Positions 2,938-28,992 of a stretch of DNA of 64,000 nt are shown piece after piece (position 1 is the stretch's first letter; the number at the start of each line of letters is the position of its first letter). Below the pieces are notes generated by a model that did no database searches, was not told the origin of the DNA, and saw only the letters and a program-made list of their open reading frames with translations. Origin of the DNA: Pseudomonadota bacterium. GTDB taxonomy: Bacteria > Bdellovibrionota > FAC87 > UBA2466. The stretch is from positions 62,001 to 126,000 of the forward strand of contig RFNO01000051.1 in NCBI GenBank assembly GCA_009927165.1, in the 5' to 3' direction. The translations under genes and the position numbers were made by a program.

Positions 2938-5589
2938 TTACTCGTAGCCTTCCCGTTGAAAATCCGAGGTTTCTTCTGGCGGAAGGGATGGGGGATTGGC
3001 AGGTATCGGTAGCGCAGGCTCATGAGGAACGGGGCCCAAATCCGCGGGAGCGGCAGTTGTTGCCCTAACGCTGGGCTCTCCCACACGGGGGATATTAGAG
3101 CCTGAGGCGTCTGGCACTGCTCCGGCTTTAAAAGCCACCCTTACGCGGTTGGGATTTGAAGGGGGAGCAAGCAGTCCCGTTTGCCTGTCCACGTAGGCAA
3201 AAACAACATCCTCGGGAATCGGAAAATCGCCTCCCGAATAGAACTTGCTTACGAATTTCAAATAATCTGCCCAAATGGGGGCCGCAGCTCGACCTCCCGT
3301 TTCTTGAACATCCAACGCCTTGTCTTTGAGATATCCAATCCAAACTCCTGCCATTACATGAGGAGAATAGCCCACAAACCAAGCGTCACGGTGATCATTT
3401 GAGGTCCCGGTTTTTCCAGCCACCGATCCAGGAACCCCCGATGCGGCTCTCCCTGTTCCTTCTTGAACCACTGCTTTGAGCATATCGGTCATTACATAAG
3501 CGGTCTGCGCCGAAATGACTCGATTTTCGTTTTCTTGAAGAGGGTCAGCAACAATAGCATTGGCAGTTGACTCTTCAGCAGCATTTTGAAGCGCCGGAAG
3601 CTCTTCAATTATTTTGCCAGTGCTGTCTTCAACTCGTTTGATGTAATTCAAGACAACTGGCTTTCCGAGACGAGGGAAAATAGCGTAAGCTCGCATGATT
3701 TCCTCTAGGCTCGTGGACCACGAACCCAATCCGATTGTGAGGTCTCGGGGGAGCGAAGCAGTAATCCCAAGGTTTCGAGAGTATTGAATACCGTAATCAA
3801 TCGTTATTTCGGATAATAGTTTTACAGTAGGAACATTCATGGAGCGAATGAGTGCTGACCGAAGAGGAATTTCTCCCTCAAATTTCCCGCCATAATTGTG
3901 AGGCTTCCAGTCTTCACCTGGTACAGTGCTTGTATCTACTTCAACTTTGTCATCATTCTTAAACACCACTGGAGAATCAGTAACAAGCGAGGATGGAGAA
4001 AATCCTTTATCGATAGCAGCAGCGTAAATAAGGGGTTTAAAGGTTGAACCGACTTGTCGCTTCGCTTGCAGAGCACAATTAAACTTACTTTTTTCGAAAT
4101 CCAATCCGCCCACCATCGCTCGTACAAAACCGTTTTTTACATCGTAAGAAAGAAGCGCTCCTGAAACTTCGGGCTCCTGTTCCAACGAACAAATTGCAAG
4201 AGCCCGCCCCTTGTCGATTTGTTCGACTTTGACGTTAATGACATCGCCCTCTCTCAATACCTGGCTTACTTTGTCCACTGGGCGATTTTCCGTTTTTACC
4301 CAGGACACTCCCGATAACGGCAATAACGCTTTGGTAAGGCCAATTCGTAATTCGGCTTCGTTGGCATTATCATTGATTCCGACAACCAGTGCTGAGTAGA
4401 TTTTATTGCTTCGAACTGGAGTATCGCCGACGAAGTCACTGTTTTTTGATAGATAAGGAGAGAGATCATACTCCAACACTTTGGACGACTTCTCCGCAGC
4501 ATCGCTTGCCAGAATTCGAGCGGGTTTAAGTTTATCAAGAACCTGTTGATGAATGGTGGCACGAAACTCTTCTCGTCGTGCTTCATCCGCCAAGTTTGAA
4601 GATACTCCCCGCCATCCTAACCGTTTATCGACATCTCGAACTCCCTTGTCTAGTGCAGCCTCGGCAGCTCTTTGGAACTCGTGCCGAACAGTAGTGTAAA
4701 CCCGGTAGCCCTGCTTTAACACGTCTTCTGAACCGTATTTTGCCATCAGATACTGACGAACATACTCCACAAAATAGGGTGCCATTTTGTTATTCAGGTC
4801 TTCTTGAGGATAGACTCTGACCGGTTCTGCAAGCACTTCCTTAAATCGTTCTTCACTCAAGTAACCGTCATCAACCATTCTTCTCAAAACATAGGTCTGT
4901 CGCTTTTTTGCCAAGTCTGGATGATGAAACGGATTCCAATCGTTGGGGCGTTGAGGCAGTCCGGCCAGAATGGCGCCTTCGGAAACAGTTAACTGTCCTA
5001 CTTTTTTATTAAAATAATTTCGAGCAGCAGCTCCGATTCCAAAAGAACCATGACCTAAATAGATTTCAGACAAGTAGAGTGAGAGGATTTCTTGTTTAGA
5101 TAATTCTCGCTCCATTCGATAAGCCAACACCATCTCTCGCAGCTTTCGAGTCAGCACCTTTTTCTTCGATTCAAGAAGTAGAGCGCGGGCTACTTGCTGG
5201 GTAATCGTACTTCCCCCTTGCGCATATCGGCCTCGAGTTAGGTTGGACCACAAGGCTCTCAAAATACTGTTAATGTCTATTCCGTGATGAGAGAGAAAAT
5301 TAGAATCTTCGGCTGCCAGAAAAGCGTTGATTACATGCTGGGGAATTTCTTTGAATTCGACTGGATAACGGCGCTCGGTTGTAAACTCTCCGATTTTGAT
5401 GCCATCATCAGAAAACACTTCTGTCGCATGGGCGTGCTGAAACGATTTAAGTTGGGAGACGGGTGGTAAGCCGGCGGTTAAAAAATAAAAGAATCCGAGA
5501 CCAACGACTGCAACACTCAGTGTTCCACCGATTAGAATCAGCGAGAAGGTTTGAAAAAATTTCCGAACCGATGGAATAGTCTGGCTCAT
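2938..5589 (-). CDS. Penicillin-binding protein 1A, bifunctional transglycosylase/transpeptidase
   Basis: This class A penicillin-binding protein polymerises and cross-links peptidoglycan from the outer face of the inner membrane. The 883-residue product has a short cytoplasmic N-terminus and one membrane segment (about residues 14-35). The GT51 transglycosylase domain follows (EDSNFLSHHGID, GGSTITQQVAR, KLREMVLAYRMERELSK), then an inserted OB-like region. The transpeptidase domain has the catalytic SxxK (GSTFKPL), SxN (RSMNVP) and KTG (AGKTGTSND) motifs. The C-terminus is Pro/Ala-rich. Its ATG overlaps the stop of the upstream ribbon-helix-helix gene as ATGA, so the two are probably translationally coupled. 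Confidence 0.96.
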   Translation of the reverse strand: MSQTIPSVRKFFQTFSLILIGGTLSVAVVGLGFFYFLTAGLPPVSQLKSFQHAHATEVFSDDGIKIGEFTTERRYPVEFKEIPQHVINAFLAAEDSNFLSHHGIDINSILRALWSNLTRGRYAQGGSTITQQVARALLLESKKKVLTRKLREMVLAYRMERELSKQEILSLYLSEIYLGHGSFGIGAAARNYFNKKVGQLTVSEGAILAGLPQRPNDWNPFHHPDLAKKRQTYVLRRMVDDGYLSEERFKEVLAEPVRVYPQEDLNNKMAPYFVEYVRQYLMAKYGSEDVLKQGYRVYTTVRHEFQRAAEAALDKGVRDVDKRLGWRGVSSNLADEARREEFRATIHQQVLDKLKPARILASDAAEKSSKVLEYDLSPYLSKNSDFVGDTPVRSNKIYSALVVGINDNANEAELRIGLTKALLPLSGVSWVKTENRPVDKVSQVLREGDVINVKVEQIDKGRALAICSLEQEPEVSGALLSYDVKNGFVRAMVGGLDFEKSKFNCALQAKRQVGSTFKPLIYAAAIDKGFSPSSLVTDSPVVFKNDDKVEVDTSTVPGEDWKPHNYGGKFEGEIPLRSALIRSMNVPTVKLLSEITIDYGIQYSRNLGITASLPRDLTIGLGSWSTSLEEIMRAYAIFPRLGKPVVLNYIKRVEDSTGKIIEELPALQNAAEESTANAIVADPLQENENRVISAQTAYVMTDMLKAVVQEGTGRAASGVPGSVAGKTGTSNDHRDAWFVGYSPHVMAGVWIGYLKDKALDVQETGGRAAAPIWADYLKFVSKFYSGGDFPIPEDVVFAYVDRQTGLLAPPSNPNRVRVAFKAGAVPDASGSNIPRVGEPSVRATTAAPADLGPVPHEPALPIPANPPSLPPEETSDFQREGYE

Positions 5590-6970: not shown

Positions 6971-8275
6971 CTACTGTTTAATTACTACTCCTGGCTTTTC
7001 CAAAAGTCTTAACCAATTCGCTGTGGATCTCATGACCCTTATTTGAAAATGTGCCCCCTCTTCCAGATAAACCTTATTGATCACTTTTGAAAACTCATGG
7101 ATCTGGGATTGGAGCCAAGTGTCACTATAAGGAACTGTGATCTCTAATTCCATCATGTCTCTTTCAAAATAAGAAAAAATAGCTTCTCTAAGCCGCCTCA
7201 TATCCATGGGCTTAAAAGCAGAAACCGCAATGCAATCAATATATTTTCGCTCTAAAATCTTCGGAAGAAAAATCTCTTTAACTAAGTCGGCTTTGTTGAA
7301 AACAAGAAAAGTAGGGTTGTCTCCGGCCCCGATTTCTTCAAGCACTTTTTTAGTAACTTCCATTTGCTCCATGTAATAAGGCGACGACATGTCTACTACA
7401 TGAAGGAGAACATCTGCTTCAAGAACCTCCTGCAGAGTAGACCTAAAGGAAGCCACCAGCCCATGAGGAAGTTTGTCAATAAACCCAACCGTGTCACTCA
7501 ACAAGATCGGAGGTCTGGTTTTTGGGTCAATAATTCTGACCGTGGAATCCAGCGTAGCAAATAAGCGGTCGTCGACATAAACATTGCTATGGGTAAGATT
7601 GTTCATGAGCGTGGATTTTCCAGCATTGGTATAGCCCACTATGGCCACTCTTAAGAATTTATCCCGGTGTCGCCGTTGGAGTGAGCGATCTTGGGCTTGA
7701 TGAGCGATTTCAGTTTTTAGTTTGGCGATTCGGCTTCGGATCATTCGTCTATCTAACTCAATTTGTTTTTCTCCAACCCCCTTTAAGCCAATCCCTCCTC
7801 GTTGCCTTTCCAAGTGAGTCCAGCGTCGAGTCAAGTGATTGGCAAGATATTCCAGCGTCGCCAGCTCCACTTGGTTTTTTGCTTCTTTAGTTCGAGCATG
7901 TTTCGAAAAGATATCTAAAATAATCCCGGTGCGATCGATCACACGGCAACAAAGAATCTTTTCAAGATTTCGCTGTTGGGTACCAGAAAGCTCTTGATCG
8001 AACGCGACTAAGTCACATTTTTTCTCTTTGATTATGACAGCGATTTCCTCTGCTTTTCCTCTCCCAATAAAAACAGAGGGTTCGGGCTTCAGCCGTTTCT
8101 GAATCACTGTTTCAACTACGTTTCCACCCAAAGTTTGAATCAGCCGTTCAAGCTCCTTGAGCGAACTTTCCACTTCGTCCTGGGTATTCTCTCGAAACTG
8201 AACTCCGACCGTTAAGACATTTTCTGTGAGCTCTGCCGAAATGGTATTGCCGCGTTTCTCCAGAAAAGAACTCAT
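6971..8275 (-). CDS. hflX: GTPase HflX, ribosome-associated
   Basis: HflX is a GTPase that binds the 50S subunit and rescues or splits stalled 70S ribosomes under stress. The N-terminal HflX domain (about residues 20-165, ending in the RGGIGLKGVGEKQIELDRR region) is followed by the G domain: G1 GYTNAGKSTL, G3 DTVGF and G4 NKAD. I place the start at ATG 8275, which forms an ATGA overlap with the stop of the upstream gene, giving 434 residues. An in-frame start at 8308 would add 11 unlikely residues. It lies between an unknown gene and ppsR in one minus-strand unit. Confidence 0.95.
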   Translation of the reverse strand: MSSFLEKRGNTISAELTENVLTVGVQFRENTQDEVESSLKELERLIQTLGGNVVETVIQKRLKPEPSVFIGRGKAEEIAVIIKEKKCDLVAFDQELSGTQQRNLEKILCCRVIDRTGIILDIFSKHARTKEAKNQVELATLEYLANHLTRRWTHLERQRGGIGLKGVGEKQIELDRRMIRSRIAKLKTEIAHQAQDRSLQRRHRDKFLRVAIVGYTNAGKSTLMNNLTHSNVYVDDRLFATLDSTVRIIDPKTRPPILLSDTVGFIDKLPHGLVASFRSTLQEVLEADVLLHVVDMSSPYYMEQMEVTKKVLEEIGAGDNPTFLVFNKADLVKEIFLPKILERKYIDCIAVSAFKPMDMRRLREAIFSYFERDMMELEITVPYSDTWLQSQIHEFSKVINKVYLEEGAHFQIRVMRSTANWLRLLEKPGVVIKQ

Positions 8276-8688
8276 AATTGAATGGTGTCTCCCCCTACCC
8301 ACAACCAATCAGAAACTGAAGATTGAAACTGTTTCAGTTCGTTTTCAATTATCAACGGCAAGTTTGGCGTAGTGGTTAAAATAAGCACTCGAGAAAAGTT
8401 CATGGACTCAGCATTTTGACAAAAAAGCTCCACATTTGTTGAGGATACAAAGTCAACAGCGAGAAAAGGTGCTGAAATTCTTCCTCCGGTTGCAATAAAA
8501 GTAGAGTCCCGCTCCGTTGAACGTAAATGTCGTGTGAGCATCCCTCCCAGCTTCCAATCCAAATGATGCAATAATCGATGTTGAGGCAACGTGTTCTGGC
8601 TTTCTGGGAGACAAATCCAGATACAGTCTAAACCCAACCCCTCCCAAAAATCTAAACGGCTTGCCGCTATTTTTTGTATTTTTGGCAT
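8272..8688 (-). CDS. Hypothetical protein upstream of hflX
   Basis: This is a 138-residue protein starting at ATG 8688 (MPKIQKIAASRLDF). I do not recognise it firmly. The stretch LHHLDWKLGGMLTRHLRS followed by an alternating beta pattern (STFIATGGRISAPFLAVDF, FSRVLILTT) loosely resembles the N-terminal macro-like domain of M17 leucyl aminopeptidases, which is only a weak suggestion. There is no signal peptide and no obvious catalytic motif. Its TGA overlaps the hflX ATG by four bases, so the two are coupled. A longer frame back to 8745 is possible but would run toward the divergent porin gene. Confidence 0.6.
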   Translation of the reverse strand: MPKIQKIAASRLDFWEGLGLDCIWICLPESQNTLPQHRLLHHLDWKLGGMLTRHLRSTERDSTFIATGGRISAPFLAVDFVSSTNVELFCQNAESMNFSRVLILTTTPNLPLIIENELKQFQSSVSDWLWVGGDTIQL

Positions 8689-8776
8689 TGCGTCGACAGT
8701 GTAGCGCAAATCGAAAAATTCTGTCCACTCATAAAACAAAATCAACTAGGATATCCAGCTTATCGGAGCCACAACT

Positions 8777-10311
8777 ATGATTCGTGCTTTCTTCTGGGCT
8801 TTTCTCTTTATTGGCTTGTTTCCAATTGGGCTACAGCTGAACGAGCCTGCGGTGAGGCGAGGATTGTTTCGGGAGCAAGTTGTTCCACTCTGAGCCTCAG
8901 ATTTGATCTTAGCTCTTGTGGCGTCCCTACCGCTGAGGGGATTCAAATTATCTGTCATCCGGGTAGGGCCGATGCGATTCTCAAACGAGAAAAAAATACC
9001 TATCACATTCCATTAAGAGAACTCGCTCCTGGTGTTTGGACTACTGTCGGTACTCTCAGGGAGTATCCGCAGAATTGGCAGCCCCCCAAAGATCCGAAAA
9101 ACTTTATTTCGGTTCGTCCGGCCCCCTCGGTTCGACCTATCCCTTTAGTCGAAGACAGTGCTCCCCAGCTGTTAGAAGTGGGGGGACAATTCAGGATACG
9201 AACAGAGCAATCTGACCGAATTGATTTTGATACAAACAGAGGATTCTCTTCGCTTCGACTGCGAGGGGATTTTTACTTTCACCCAAGCGAATCTGTAATT
9301 TTTCTGTTGGAGCCCCAAGCCAATCATGTCTTCGGAGAGCCACTCCTAAGAACGGTTACACCTAGCGCTAATGCGAATGTAGCTACCAGCGGAGCAAATC
9401 AAGATCCTATTTTGTCTTTTCATCAGGCCTATGTCCAATTACGCCTTTTACCCCTTTGGCAAATCACAGCAGGTCGACAGCTTTTTTCTTATGGAGATGA
9501 AGTTCTTGTCGGACTTTCAGACTGGGAGAATCCGGGCAGAAGTTTCGACGGGATTCGTTCTCGTTTGGATTTCTCATTTGGCTTTTGGGATGTTTTTACC
9601 ACAAAAATTTGGGATGCCAGCACTCAAACCGTCCCCTCAAGAGACAAAGATTTTCATGGGACTGTTTCCGAATGGCGAAGCGATGGCTCATCTCTGATTT
9701 TGCAGCCCTATTTCTTTTGGCTTCGGGATCATCGAGCACAGATTTATGAATTATTTTCCTTGGGACTTCACACTCGGAAACAACTTGGGAATTTTAGAGT
9801 TGCTTTCGAAGGTACAGGTCAGTGGGGGGATTCGTCTGGGGCGCAAGTGTGGGCCGAAGTACAGACTCAACCATTTTCCGCTTATGAAGCCTTTGTGGGG
9901 CTGGATGCGTTTTATTCGAGCCCGGACTTCAATTCTCTGTTTCCGAGTGTGCACAAATGGCTCGGTTGGGCAGATGTATTAGGCCGCCGAAATCTTTCGG
10001 GAGCGGGAGGAAGAATCGGATTTCGACCCACTTCATTATTGGAATGTGAAGTTCGCGGCCTCCACTTTATTCGAACCCATACAGACTTCCCCGGATATAA
10101 ACGCGATGGGCTTACTCCCCTTACGGGTAATACAGATTTAGCCGATGCTCACCTCGGTTCAGAACTCGATGCCATTATAAAAGTGCAGCTTCTAGGAGGG
10201 GTTGACCTGGTCTCCGCGGCTTCCCTTTTCTTCGCTGCTCAGCCCCTTCGCGATAGTTACGGGGAGTCTCCGGTAGCGCGGTTTGAGTTGAGTGTGTCGG
10301 GGAGCTTTTAG
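8777..10311 (+). CDS. Alginate-export-type outer-membrane porin, apparent 1-base frameshift in the signal peptide
   Basis: The body resembles the alginate export family of outer-membrane beta-barrels: a repeated amphipathic pattern with ITAGRQLFSYGDEVLVGLSDW and GRSFDGIRSRLDF, ending SPVARFELSVSGSF. The body frame has no credible start; its earliest is TTG 8674, with no signal peptide in proper position. ATG 8777, eight bases after GGAG, opens a different frame encoding MIRAFFWAFLFIGLFPIG. One extra G in the GGG run at 8828-8830 joins the frames and creates an ATA|ERA cleavage site and a 511-residue protein. This implies a sequencing deletion or a real disabling mutation. Cysteines cluster in the first 40 mature residues. 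The transported substrate is unknown. Confidence 0.75.
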
Positions 10312-10356
10312 GGAGTTCTTTTCTTCTTGGATGCTGGTGAAGCCTCGCCAAACGTC

Positions 10357-10374
10357 GTATAATTTTTATTATAC
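10357..10374. repeat. AT-rich perfect inverted repeat between convergent genes
   Basis: GTATAAT-TTTT-ATTATAC is a perfect 7-bp stem with a 4-base loop in the 79-base gap between the 3' ends of the porin gene and nusB. It contains no G/C-rich stem and no following T-tract, so it would be a poor terminator. It may be a weak bidirectional end signal. Confidence 0.35.
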
Positions 10375-10390
10375 TACTTAAAATCCAAGG

Positions 10391-10822
10391 CTATTCCGCT
10401 TTTGATGTTTGGGGGAATTTTTCTTTAATCCTATCCAGGACGCCGTTTACAAACGACGGCGTGGTTTCAGAACCAAATTCTTTGGAAATCTCTACCATTT
10501 CATTCAAAGTTACCGTAGCTGGAATATCGCGACAGAAAAGAAGCTCGTAGGCGCCCAACCTCAAAATATTTCGGTCCACAGCCGCCATCCGTTCTGGCCG
10601 CCAATTCTCTGAAATGGAACGAATTTTTTCATCAATCTCGATAACGTTCTCCCCTACTCCCACGACCAATCGCCGAGTAAATTCATCAATTCCAGTTTTA
10701 TTTTGGGAATAGAGATTTTCAAAATGCCGCAAAGCCGTCTCTACACTCAGATCATTATTGAGATCTAACTGATAAAGAATCTGCAACGCATCTTCTCTGG
10801 CTTTTCTTCGAACACCCTTCAT
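10391..10822 (-). CDS. nusB: Transcription antitermination protein NusB
   Basis: NusB joins NusE and boxA RNA in rRNA antitermination complexes. The all-helical 143-residue protein starts MKGVRRKAREDALQILYQLD, and its C-terminal half carries the conserved AAVDRNILRLGAYELLF and TVTLNEMVEISKEFG followed by SFVNGVLDRI. ATG 10822 begins two bases after the glyA stop; an upstream in-frame start at 10858 would overlap glyA and lacks support. It is the last gene of the acpP-fabF-rpiB-glyA-nusB unit. Confidence 0.95.
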   Translation of the reverse strand: MKGVRRKAREDALQILYQLDLNNDLSVETALRHFENLYSQNKTGIDEFTRRLVVGVGENVIEIDEKIRSISENWRPERMAAVDRNILRLGAYELLFCRDIPATVTLNEMVEISKEFGSETTPSFVNGVLDRIKEKFPQTSKAE

Positions 10823-10824
10823 GA

Positions 10825-12063
10825 TTACATTGAGGAATAAATAGGATATTTGAGGCAAATATCCCTTACCTCACCTCGAATTTTTTGAATTACGGAATCG
10901 CTACCGTCCAAAAGAACCTGTGCGATTGCTTTTGCTAGCCATTTCATATCGGTCTCTTTCAAGCCCCGGGTTGTAATGGCGGGAGTCCCCATTCGAACTC
11001 CGCTGGTTACAAAAGCAGATACGGTTTCAAACGGCACCGTGTTTTTGTTCGCTGTCAGTCCTGCTCGGTCCAATCGCGCTTCGGCATCTTTACCTGTTAG
11101 GCCCTTATTTCGCAAATCAATTAGCAGAAGGTGATTTTCCGTGCCTCCGCTAACCAACGAGAATCCCTCAGCCATGAGATGCTCAGCTAATGCTTTGCAA
11201 TTAATCAGCACTTGTTTCTGGTACTCTTTAAATTGAGGATCTAACGCTTCCTTAAACGCGACCGCTTTAGCTGCAATCACGTGCATCAGCGGTCCGCCCT
11301 GAATTCCGGGAAAAATGCGGCTATTTATTTTTTGTCGCCAAGCCTCTTTAAACAGGATGATTCCTCCTCGAGGGCCTCGTAAGGTCTTATGGGTGGTACT
11401 CGTTACAAAATCGGCATGGGGCACGGGGGATGGATGGAGTCCAGCGGCTACTAACCCTGCTATGTGAGCCATATCGACCAATAAAAGAGCATCAATTTCT
11501 TTAGCGATGGCAGAAAATTTTTCAAAATCAATTTTGCGAGGATAAGCGCTTGCTCCTGCCACAATGAGTTTCGGACGATGTTCTCGCGCTAAGTCTCTTA
11601 CCTGATCATAATCGATCAGTTGGTTGTCCTGCCTAACGCCATAAAAAACCGCTTTATAAAGAAGTCCCGATACATTGACAGGATGCCCGTGGGTCAAATG
11701 CCCTCCATGGGATAAGTTCATGCCCATGATGGTATCGCCAGGTTGAAGGCAAGCGAGATACACAGCTAAATTGCTCTGTGATCCGCTATGGGGTTGAACA
11801 TTAGCGCCATCAGCACCAAATAATTGCAGGCACCGATCGATTGCCAGCTTTTCAGCGACATCTACAAATTCACACCCCCCATAGTACCTTTTACCTGGAT
11901 AACCTTCGGCGTATTTGTTGGTGAGAACGCTTCCTTGAGCTTCCAGAACTGCAGGAGATACAATGTTTTCACTGGGAATTAACTCCAATGACTCCTGCTG
12001 TCGAACCAGCTCAGATTTGATAGCCGTCGCTAATTCAGGATCATTTTTAGAAATCAAGTTCAT
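10825..12063 (-). CDS. glyA: Serine hydroxymethyltransferase
   Basis: This PLP enzyme interconverts serine and glycine while charging tetrahydrofolate with a methylene group. The 412-residue length is typical. Visible motifs include the N-terminal [53 protein letters not shown], and the PLP-lysine motif [13 protein letters not shown]. Its ATG overlaps the rpiB TGA as ATGA. The enzyme links directly to the glycine cleavage genes 3-10 kb away on the other strand, since both use glycine and methylene-THF. Confidence 0.97.
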
Positions 12064-28470: not shown

Positions 28471-28567
28471 CCTCTTCAAAGGTTAGTTGGATTTTCCCTC
28501 GCGAAGCCGAGATCGTCTAGGAGTTTTCTCACTGGAATCCCAAAGTGACTTAGTTTATAACCGGATG

Positions 28568-28966
28568 GGGAAAGTTCGGATGACAATCGCCTTAGGGAAC
28601 TCCCTGAAGGAGGAAAGTCCGGACACCAAAGAGCACCGTAGCGGGTAACACCCGTCCAGCGTAAGCTGCGGACCAGCGCAACAGAAAGGATGTACAGGGC
28701 TTGGCCACTAGGCCAGACTGCTTACCTTGGCAAAGTAAACAGGATGAAATGATTCATTTCGAGCCGCTGTAGTGAAAACCGGCAAGCTCTACGGGGTGCA
28801 AGGTCAAATCGTGAAGTGAGTGAAAAACTTCTGTTTTTCGCCCCAAGTGACTCGCTTGGTAACTTCCAGGTAGACTGCTTGACTGAATGGGCAACCATTT
28901 AGCTAGAGGAATGATTGTCGGAGATGAATGTCTTCAACAGAATCCGGCTTATTTCCGAACTTTCCC
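28568..28966 (+). ncRNA. rnpB: RNase P RNA, bacterial type A
   Basis: RNase P RNA is the catalytic subunit that matures tRNA 5' ends. The universal 5' P4 element GAGGAAAGTCCGGACACC occurs near 28610, GCGCAACAGAAAG near 28677, and the 3' P4 partner with ACAGAATCCGGCTTA near 28937. The ends pair perfectly over 13 bp (GGGAAAGTTCGGA with TCCGAACTTTCCC), forming helix P1 and fixing the boundaries at about 399 nt. A T-rich stretch follows. The protein partner rnpA is not in the window. Confidence 0.97.
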
Positions 28967-28992
28967 TTTTAAATTTTTTAGGAGCAAACACA

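Follow-up and report, generated by a model that had tools for sequence, protein, structure and literature searches.

Why do the signal-peptide-like start and the body of a putative porin gene lie in different reading frames? The gene lies in a 64,000-nucleotide stretch of DNA, here called the window (G000:C130:62001-126000), from a Bdellovibrio-related bacterium whose genome assembly totals 2.47 Mb over 137 contigs. The features relevant to this question are as follows.

6971 to 8308, minus strand: HflX-type GTPase, conserved neighbour of the porin gene; we take the product to be HflX from its Pfam domains GTP-bdg_N, GTP-bdg_M, and MMR_HSR1
8272 to 8745, minus strand: divergent neighbour, an open reading frame (ORF) of 157 amino acids between hflX and the porin gene
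8765 to 8768, plus strand: ribosome-binding site GGAG, 8 nt upstream of ATG 8777
8777 to 8893, plus strand: 38-codon frame with the signal-peptide-like start MIRAFFWAFLFIGLFPIG..., stop TGA at 8891 to 8893
8777 to 8838, plus strand: stretch containing the frame change, with both frames open throughout
8839 to 10311, plus strand: porin body in the second frame, 490 codons plus stop, C-terminal Phe; Alginate_exp (PF13372), E value of 1.1e-16
8839 to 9084, plus strand: N-terminal 4-Cys/Trp domain (C4, C15, C27, C39, and W67)
9172 to 9855, plus strand: region most similar to Alginate_exp, covering residues 112 to 339 of the body
10391 to 10858, minus strand: NusB

Distant relatives of the 157-amino-acid ORF were found in 4 of 19 other genomes searched; neither same-genus genome contained a match, and no Pfam family matched it at an E value of 0.01. 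A sigma-70-type scan of 8640 to 10450 found no plus-strand site upstream of the porin gene.

Inspection of the ORFs confirmed a preliminary description of this DNA, in which the start and the body were assigned to different frames and ATG 8777 was credited with a GGAG ribosome site and a signal-peptide-like start. Translation from this ATG yields a peptide of 38 residues, MIRAFFWAFLFIGLFPIGLQLNEPAVRRGLFREQVVPL. The body frame is open from after a stop at 8653 through the stop at 10309 to 10311, and the 490-residue body begins at 8839 with ERACGEARIVSG. Between 8654 and the barrel match, the only ATG, GTG, or TTG codons in the body frame are TTG 8674 and GTG 9178, neither of which has a Shine-Dalgarno (SD)-like match upstream. 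The arithmetic of the proposed 511-residue joined product agrees (21 + 490). The cleavage-like site A-T-A|E-R-A belongs to the body frame, and the n-region to the ATG frame.

To place this arrangement among relatives, the body was searched against 59 genomes, of which 13, including that of the window, had a match. The genus comprises three genomes in the collection, and both of the others (G001 and G002) matched nearly the whole body, with 52% and 49% identity. Each orthologue adjoins hflX, and in each a signal-peptide-like start runs into the body in a single frame; the G001 protein starts with MRPVICYLAVVYCVLCSFTCWGERSCGEAK, and the G002 protein, read from an internal ATG of its longest ORF, starts with MGKKHILSILILLFFSPIQSLGEVPCGEAR. 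This comparison of the same locus in relatives, which the preliminary description had proposed, thus found both copies intact and no homologue lacking the signal frame there. It supports the earlier view that a single gene encodes both signal peptide and body and that it lacks a base which intact relatives have. The break would correspond to a net loss of one base, or an equivalent change, somewhere from 8777 to about 8838, and this assembly is so far the only one to show it.

The exact site of the frame change is not fixed, since both frames are open across 8777 to 8838; both are also hydrophobic between 8777 and about 8838. The preliminary description had placed a missing G in GGG 8828 to 8830. 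That GGG is present, and it is a possible site of loss but not an established one, as a second GGG (8796) and TTTT (8800 to 8803) occupy the same stretch. A codon-usage scan gave about +2.1 bits for the ATG frame over 8777 to 8830 and about -1.0 for the body frame over 8776 to 8829 (20-codon controls were 5.4, sd 3.3, in frame and -8.2, sd 6.5, off frame). The scan slightly favours the ATG frame as far as about 8830 but does not fix the site.

The porin body matched the Alginate_exp profile with 61 bits (gathering cut-off, 25.2; the E value listed above is for the whole protein). Its residues 112 to 339 share the family match, and the window protein differs in adding the 4-Cys domain before it. 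We filed the gene as a broken member of Alginate_exp on the strength of the body; a signal peptide in frame with the barrel is absent from the window assembly and present in both same-genus orthologues. The PDB sequence set contained no relative of the protein at E values up to 1. AlphaFold2 run on a two-row alignment gave an unusable model (pLDDT of 29.3). The relatives point to an exported outer-membrane porin of the Alginate_exp type, and the Cys pattern suggests a periplasmic N-terminal domain that is probably disulfide bonded. In the text of a report on the Bdellovibrio porin-like protein PopA (PMC12228718), the word "disulfide" appears twice, each time within the same reference-list entry.

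Four Cys residues and one Trp were invariant within about 85 residues at the start of the body (14 aligned sequences), and a profile of this domain gave 35 matches in 31 of the 368 genomes of the phylum. The window copy was the sole match in its own genome, both by the whole body and by the domain profile. We surveyed leaders at 32 loci (30 of the 35 profile matches plus L003 and L004); after one locus without the 4-Cys pattern and two duplicates were dropped, 29 distinct loci remained. At 24 of these, the first Cys was preceded at a distance of 15 to 50 residues by an in-frame start, and the hydrophobic core scored above 1.5; the start taken was the most hydrophobic option, a lenient choice, and leaders were judged by hydrophobicity alone. 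The other five were the window copy, three domains near the end of frames of 245 to 251 residues, and one short protein whose core fell slightly below the cut-off (1.35). Among the 22 copies with more than 400 residues after the domain, 21, including both same-genus orthologues, had an in-frame hydrophobic leader, and the window copy did not. The break has therefore so far been observed in this assembly alone.

The domain occurs directly after the signal peptide in the window (8839 to 9084) and is recorded at L044, L045, L047, L048, L051-L053, L055, L057-L059, and L061-L090. Ten carriers were scanned for barrel families: seven had a BBP2 (PF07642) barrel, one had Alginate_exp above the cut-off and one below it, and one had Porin_O_P (PF07396). 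These barrel families may themselves be related. Several carriers have Pro/Ala-rich linkers ahead of the barrel, which hint that the domain may act as a periplasmic tether or cap. The domain also lies near the end of the 245- to 251-residue open frames mentioned above (L081, L082, and L086), two of which encode proteins that begin like lipoproteins, with a hydrophobic start followed by LSACTS (observed in L054 and L056, which are the same genes), and four short open frames of 126 to 175 residues (L083-L085 and L087) consist mostly of it. Searches with the domain alone (14 copies) against Pfam and NCBIfam found no convincing family, the best E value being 0.006 for one member. The domain profile also matched four PDB sequences, all Shiga-toxin B subunits, with E values of 0.34 to 0.92, which is chance level.

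Could the split be a device of the organism? The preliminary description had raised a phase-variable off-switch, in which a short run in the signal-peptide stretch would turn the porin gene on or off as its length changed. The break does lie in that stretch, and TTTT 8800 to 8803, GGG 8796, and GGG 8828 are available there. Some phase-variable surface-protein genes carry repeats in the signal-peptide stretch, and opa-type phase variation of Neisseria acts in the leader. The window shares with the opa system a frame change within the signal-peptide stretch but differs in having no repeat tract: the longest run in its leader is TTTT 8800 to 8803, and neither a tandem repeat nor a run of more than 4 is present. 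Coding DNA of the window contig contains about 11.7 runs of GGG or longer per kb. Longer runs do occur in the orthologue leaders: G001 has six G next to the cleavage region, and G002 has a run of six A and one of five T. These are unremarkable, because they share no position and coding DNA is rich in runs of six or more, with 277 in 110.0 kb on the window contig and 362 in 135.7 kb on G001:C6, where 22 of 106 ORFs contain six or more G. A homopolymer switch is thus not supported, and we regard it as highly improbable.

Two further readings would leave the assembled sequence functional. Programmed or leaky -1 ribosomal frameshifting could link the frames, for example by P-site re-pairing at TTT 8801; the required shift is indeed -1, and this codon, preceded by T, could re-pair perfectly. 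The earlier statement that the junction does not resemble a programmed -1 slip site stands as far as classical sites go, although its argument covered GGG only and not TTT 8801. No tandem slippery heptamer X XXY YYZ occurs in the ATG frame from 8777 to the stop at 8891, and the downstream RNA of 8803 to 8903 does not exceed its shuffles in stability (z, -0.36; 66 of 200 at least as stable, in a model without pseudoknots). The two orthologues need no shift, and a conserved two-frame arrangement is absent: a single frame was found in all 21 other long domain relatives, those two included. Such frameshifting is very unlikely to join the frames. The same low probability applies to its corollary, that slippage at TTTT 8800 to 8803 would yield a minor exported share, so that the break would be real and functional and export of a single-copy porin would be set translationally in one lineage. 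Barely more credible is that translation of the body begins at TTG 8674 (or CTG 8794), without a change of frame, and adds a long or unusual leader that includes the hydrophobic SCFLLGFSLYWLVSNWATA. From TTG 8674 onward the body frame runs without a stop, and it is hydrophobic in the leader stretch, but T-rich DNA would be expected to read as hydrophobic in several frames. TTG 8674 lacks an SD match, lies inside the divergent 157-amino-acid ORF, and stands 58 codons before the first Cys, whereas in all 21 comparable proteins a start in frame, with a hydrophobic core, lies within 50.

The frame break, seen directly in this assembly and absent from the two orthologues, very probably reflects one recent, unprogrammed loss of a single base, or an equivalent change, in the signal-peptide stretch of an ordinary secreted Alginate_exp porin gene. 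The remainder of the gene is observably intact. Its 490 codons contain no internal stop, although 187 of the 4,410 possible single substitutions would create one, and the body retains the invariant Cys and Trp residues and the C-terminal Phe. Lineage-private substitutions made up 74 of 172 (0.43) in the body and 523 of 1,410 (0.37) in 17 flanking genes (Fisher P value of 0.13), which leans toward relaxation but is not significant. Nineteen genes had a partner in each of the three genomes; the flanking total omits the porin itself and one further gene, whose G002 partner is only 27.5% identical, and for two flanking genes frame breaks in G002 limited the comparison to part of the length. Mismatches of the body to the G001 orthologue by codon position (0.41, 0.30, and 0.60) are consistent with long-term purifying selection on the porin protein. 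The intact body, the lack of a significant substitution excess, and this pattern together indicate that the gene was functional until recently or still is. This leaves two candidate origins for the break, an error in the consensus and a null mutation of recent date.

We compared the window contig with G001:C6 by tblastn; for 91 of 141 G001 ORFs, the best match reached an identity of 40% or more, and the alignments covered 96.7 kb. Only one candidate frame break emerged on the window contig, at positions 28567 to 28823 of the window, and it was rejected as RNase P RNA (match, 28571 to 28967). Comparison of G002:C124 with the window contig gave no candidate in 20 ORFs, and the porin break therefore looks isolated on a contig nearly free of frame breaks. 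The survey is blind to breaks where gene ends are not conserved and gave no signal at the porin gene, so the true break rate may be higher; among 97 gene pairs compared as reciprocal best matches, 17 had a differing end under loose criteria. By the same method, the G002 contig had 3 candidate breaks in 19 genes, and its assembly thus seems much more error-prone. The scarcity of breaks counts mildly against a generally error-prone consensus for the window contig, and the runs of 3 and 4 bases in the leader stretch are not especially error-prone.

Two observations from this survey stand apart from the porin gene. The bacterial class A RNase P RNA at 28571 to 28967 of the window mimics a frame-broken gene in translated comparison. 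The breaks in G002:C124 (L004, L034, and L035) include hflX and the orthologue of the window's 883-amino-acid ORF at 2938 to 5589.

The comparison covered one assembly of this species and orthologues of only 49 to 52% identity, which do not separate error from mutation. We give about even chances to a consensus or assembly error, with the gene intact in the cell, and somewhat less weight to a genuine null mutation that arose recently in the strain sampled. Porin genes such as those for OprD and OmpK35 are inactivated by frameshift in other Gram-negative bacteria; there, as here, one indel abolishes an outer-membrane channel, but the window case comes from a single assembly.

A Sec signal peptide would normally carry the porin to the periplasm, where the 4-Cys domain would fold, and the barrel would become embedded in the outer membrane. 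As assembled, translation from ATG 8777 would end after 38 codons, and since the body lacks a well-placed start, no exported porin would be expected. An automatic gene caller may drop the signal peptide or choose the wrong start codon, so that the porin would be labelled a pseudogene or a cytoplasmic protein. A real mutation would mean that the strain has recently lost the only porin of this kind that its genome was found to encode. The portable 4-Cys/Trp domain, carried on three porin families in the phylum, has wider interest than the frame break.
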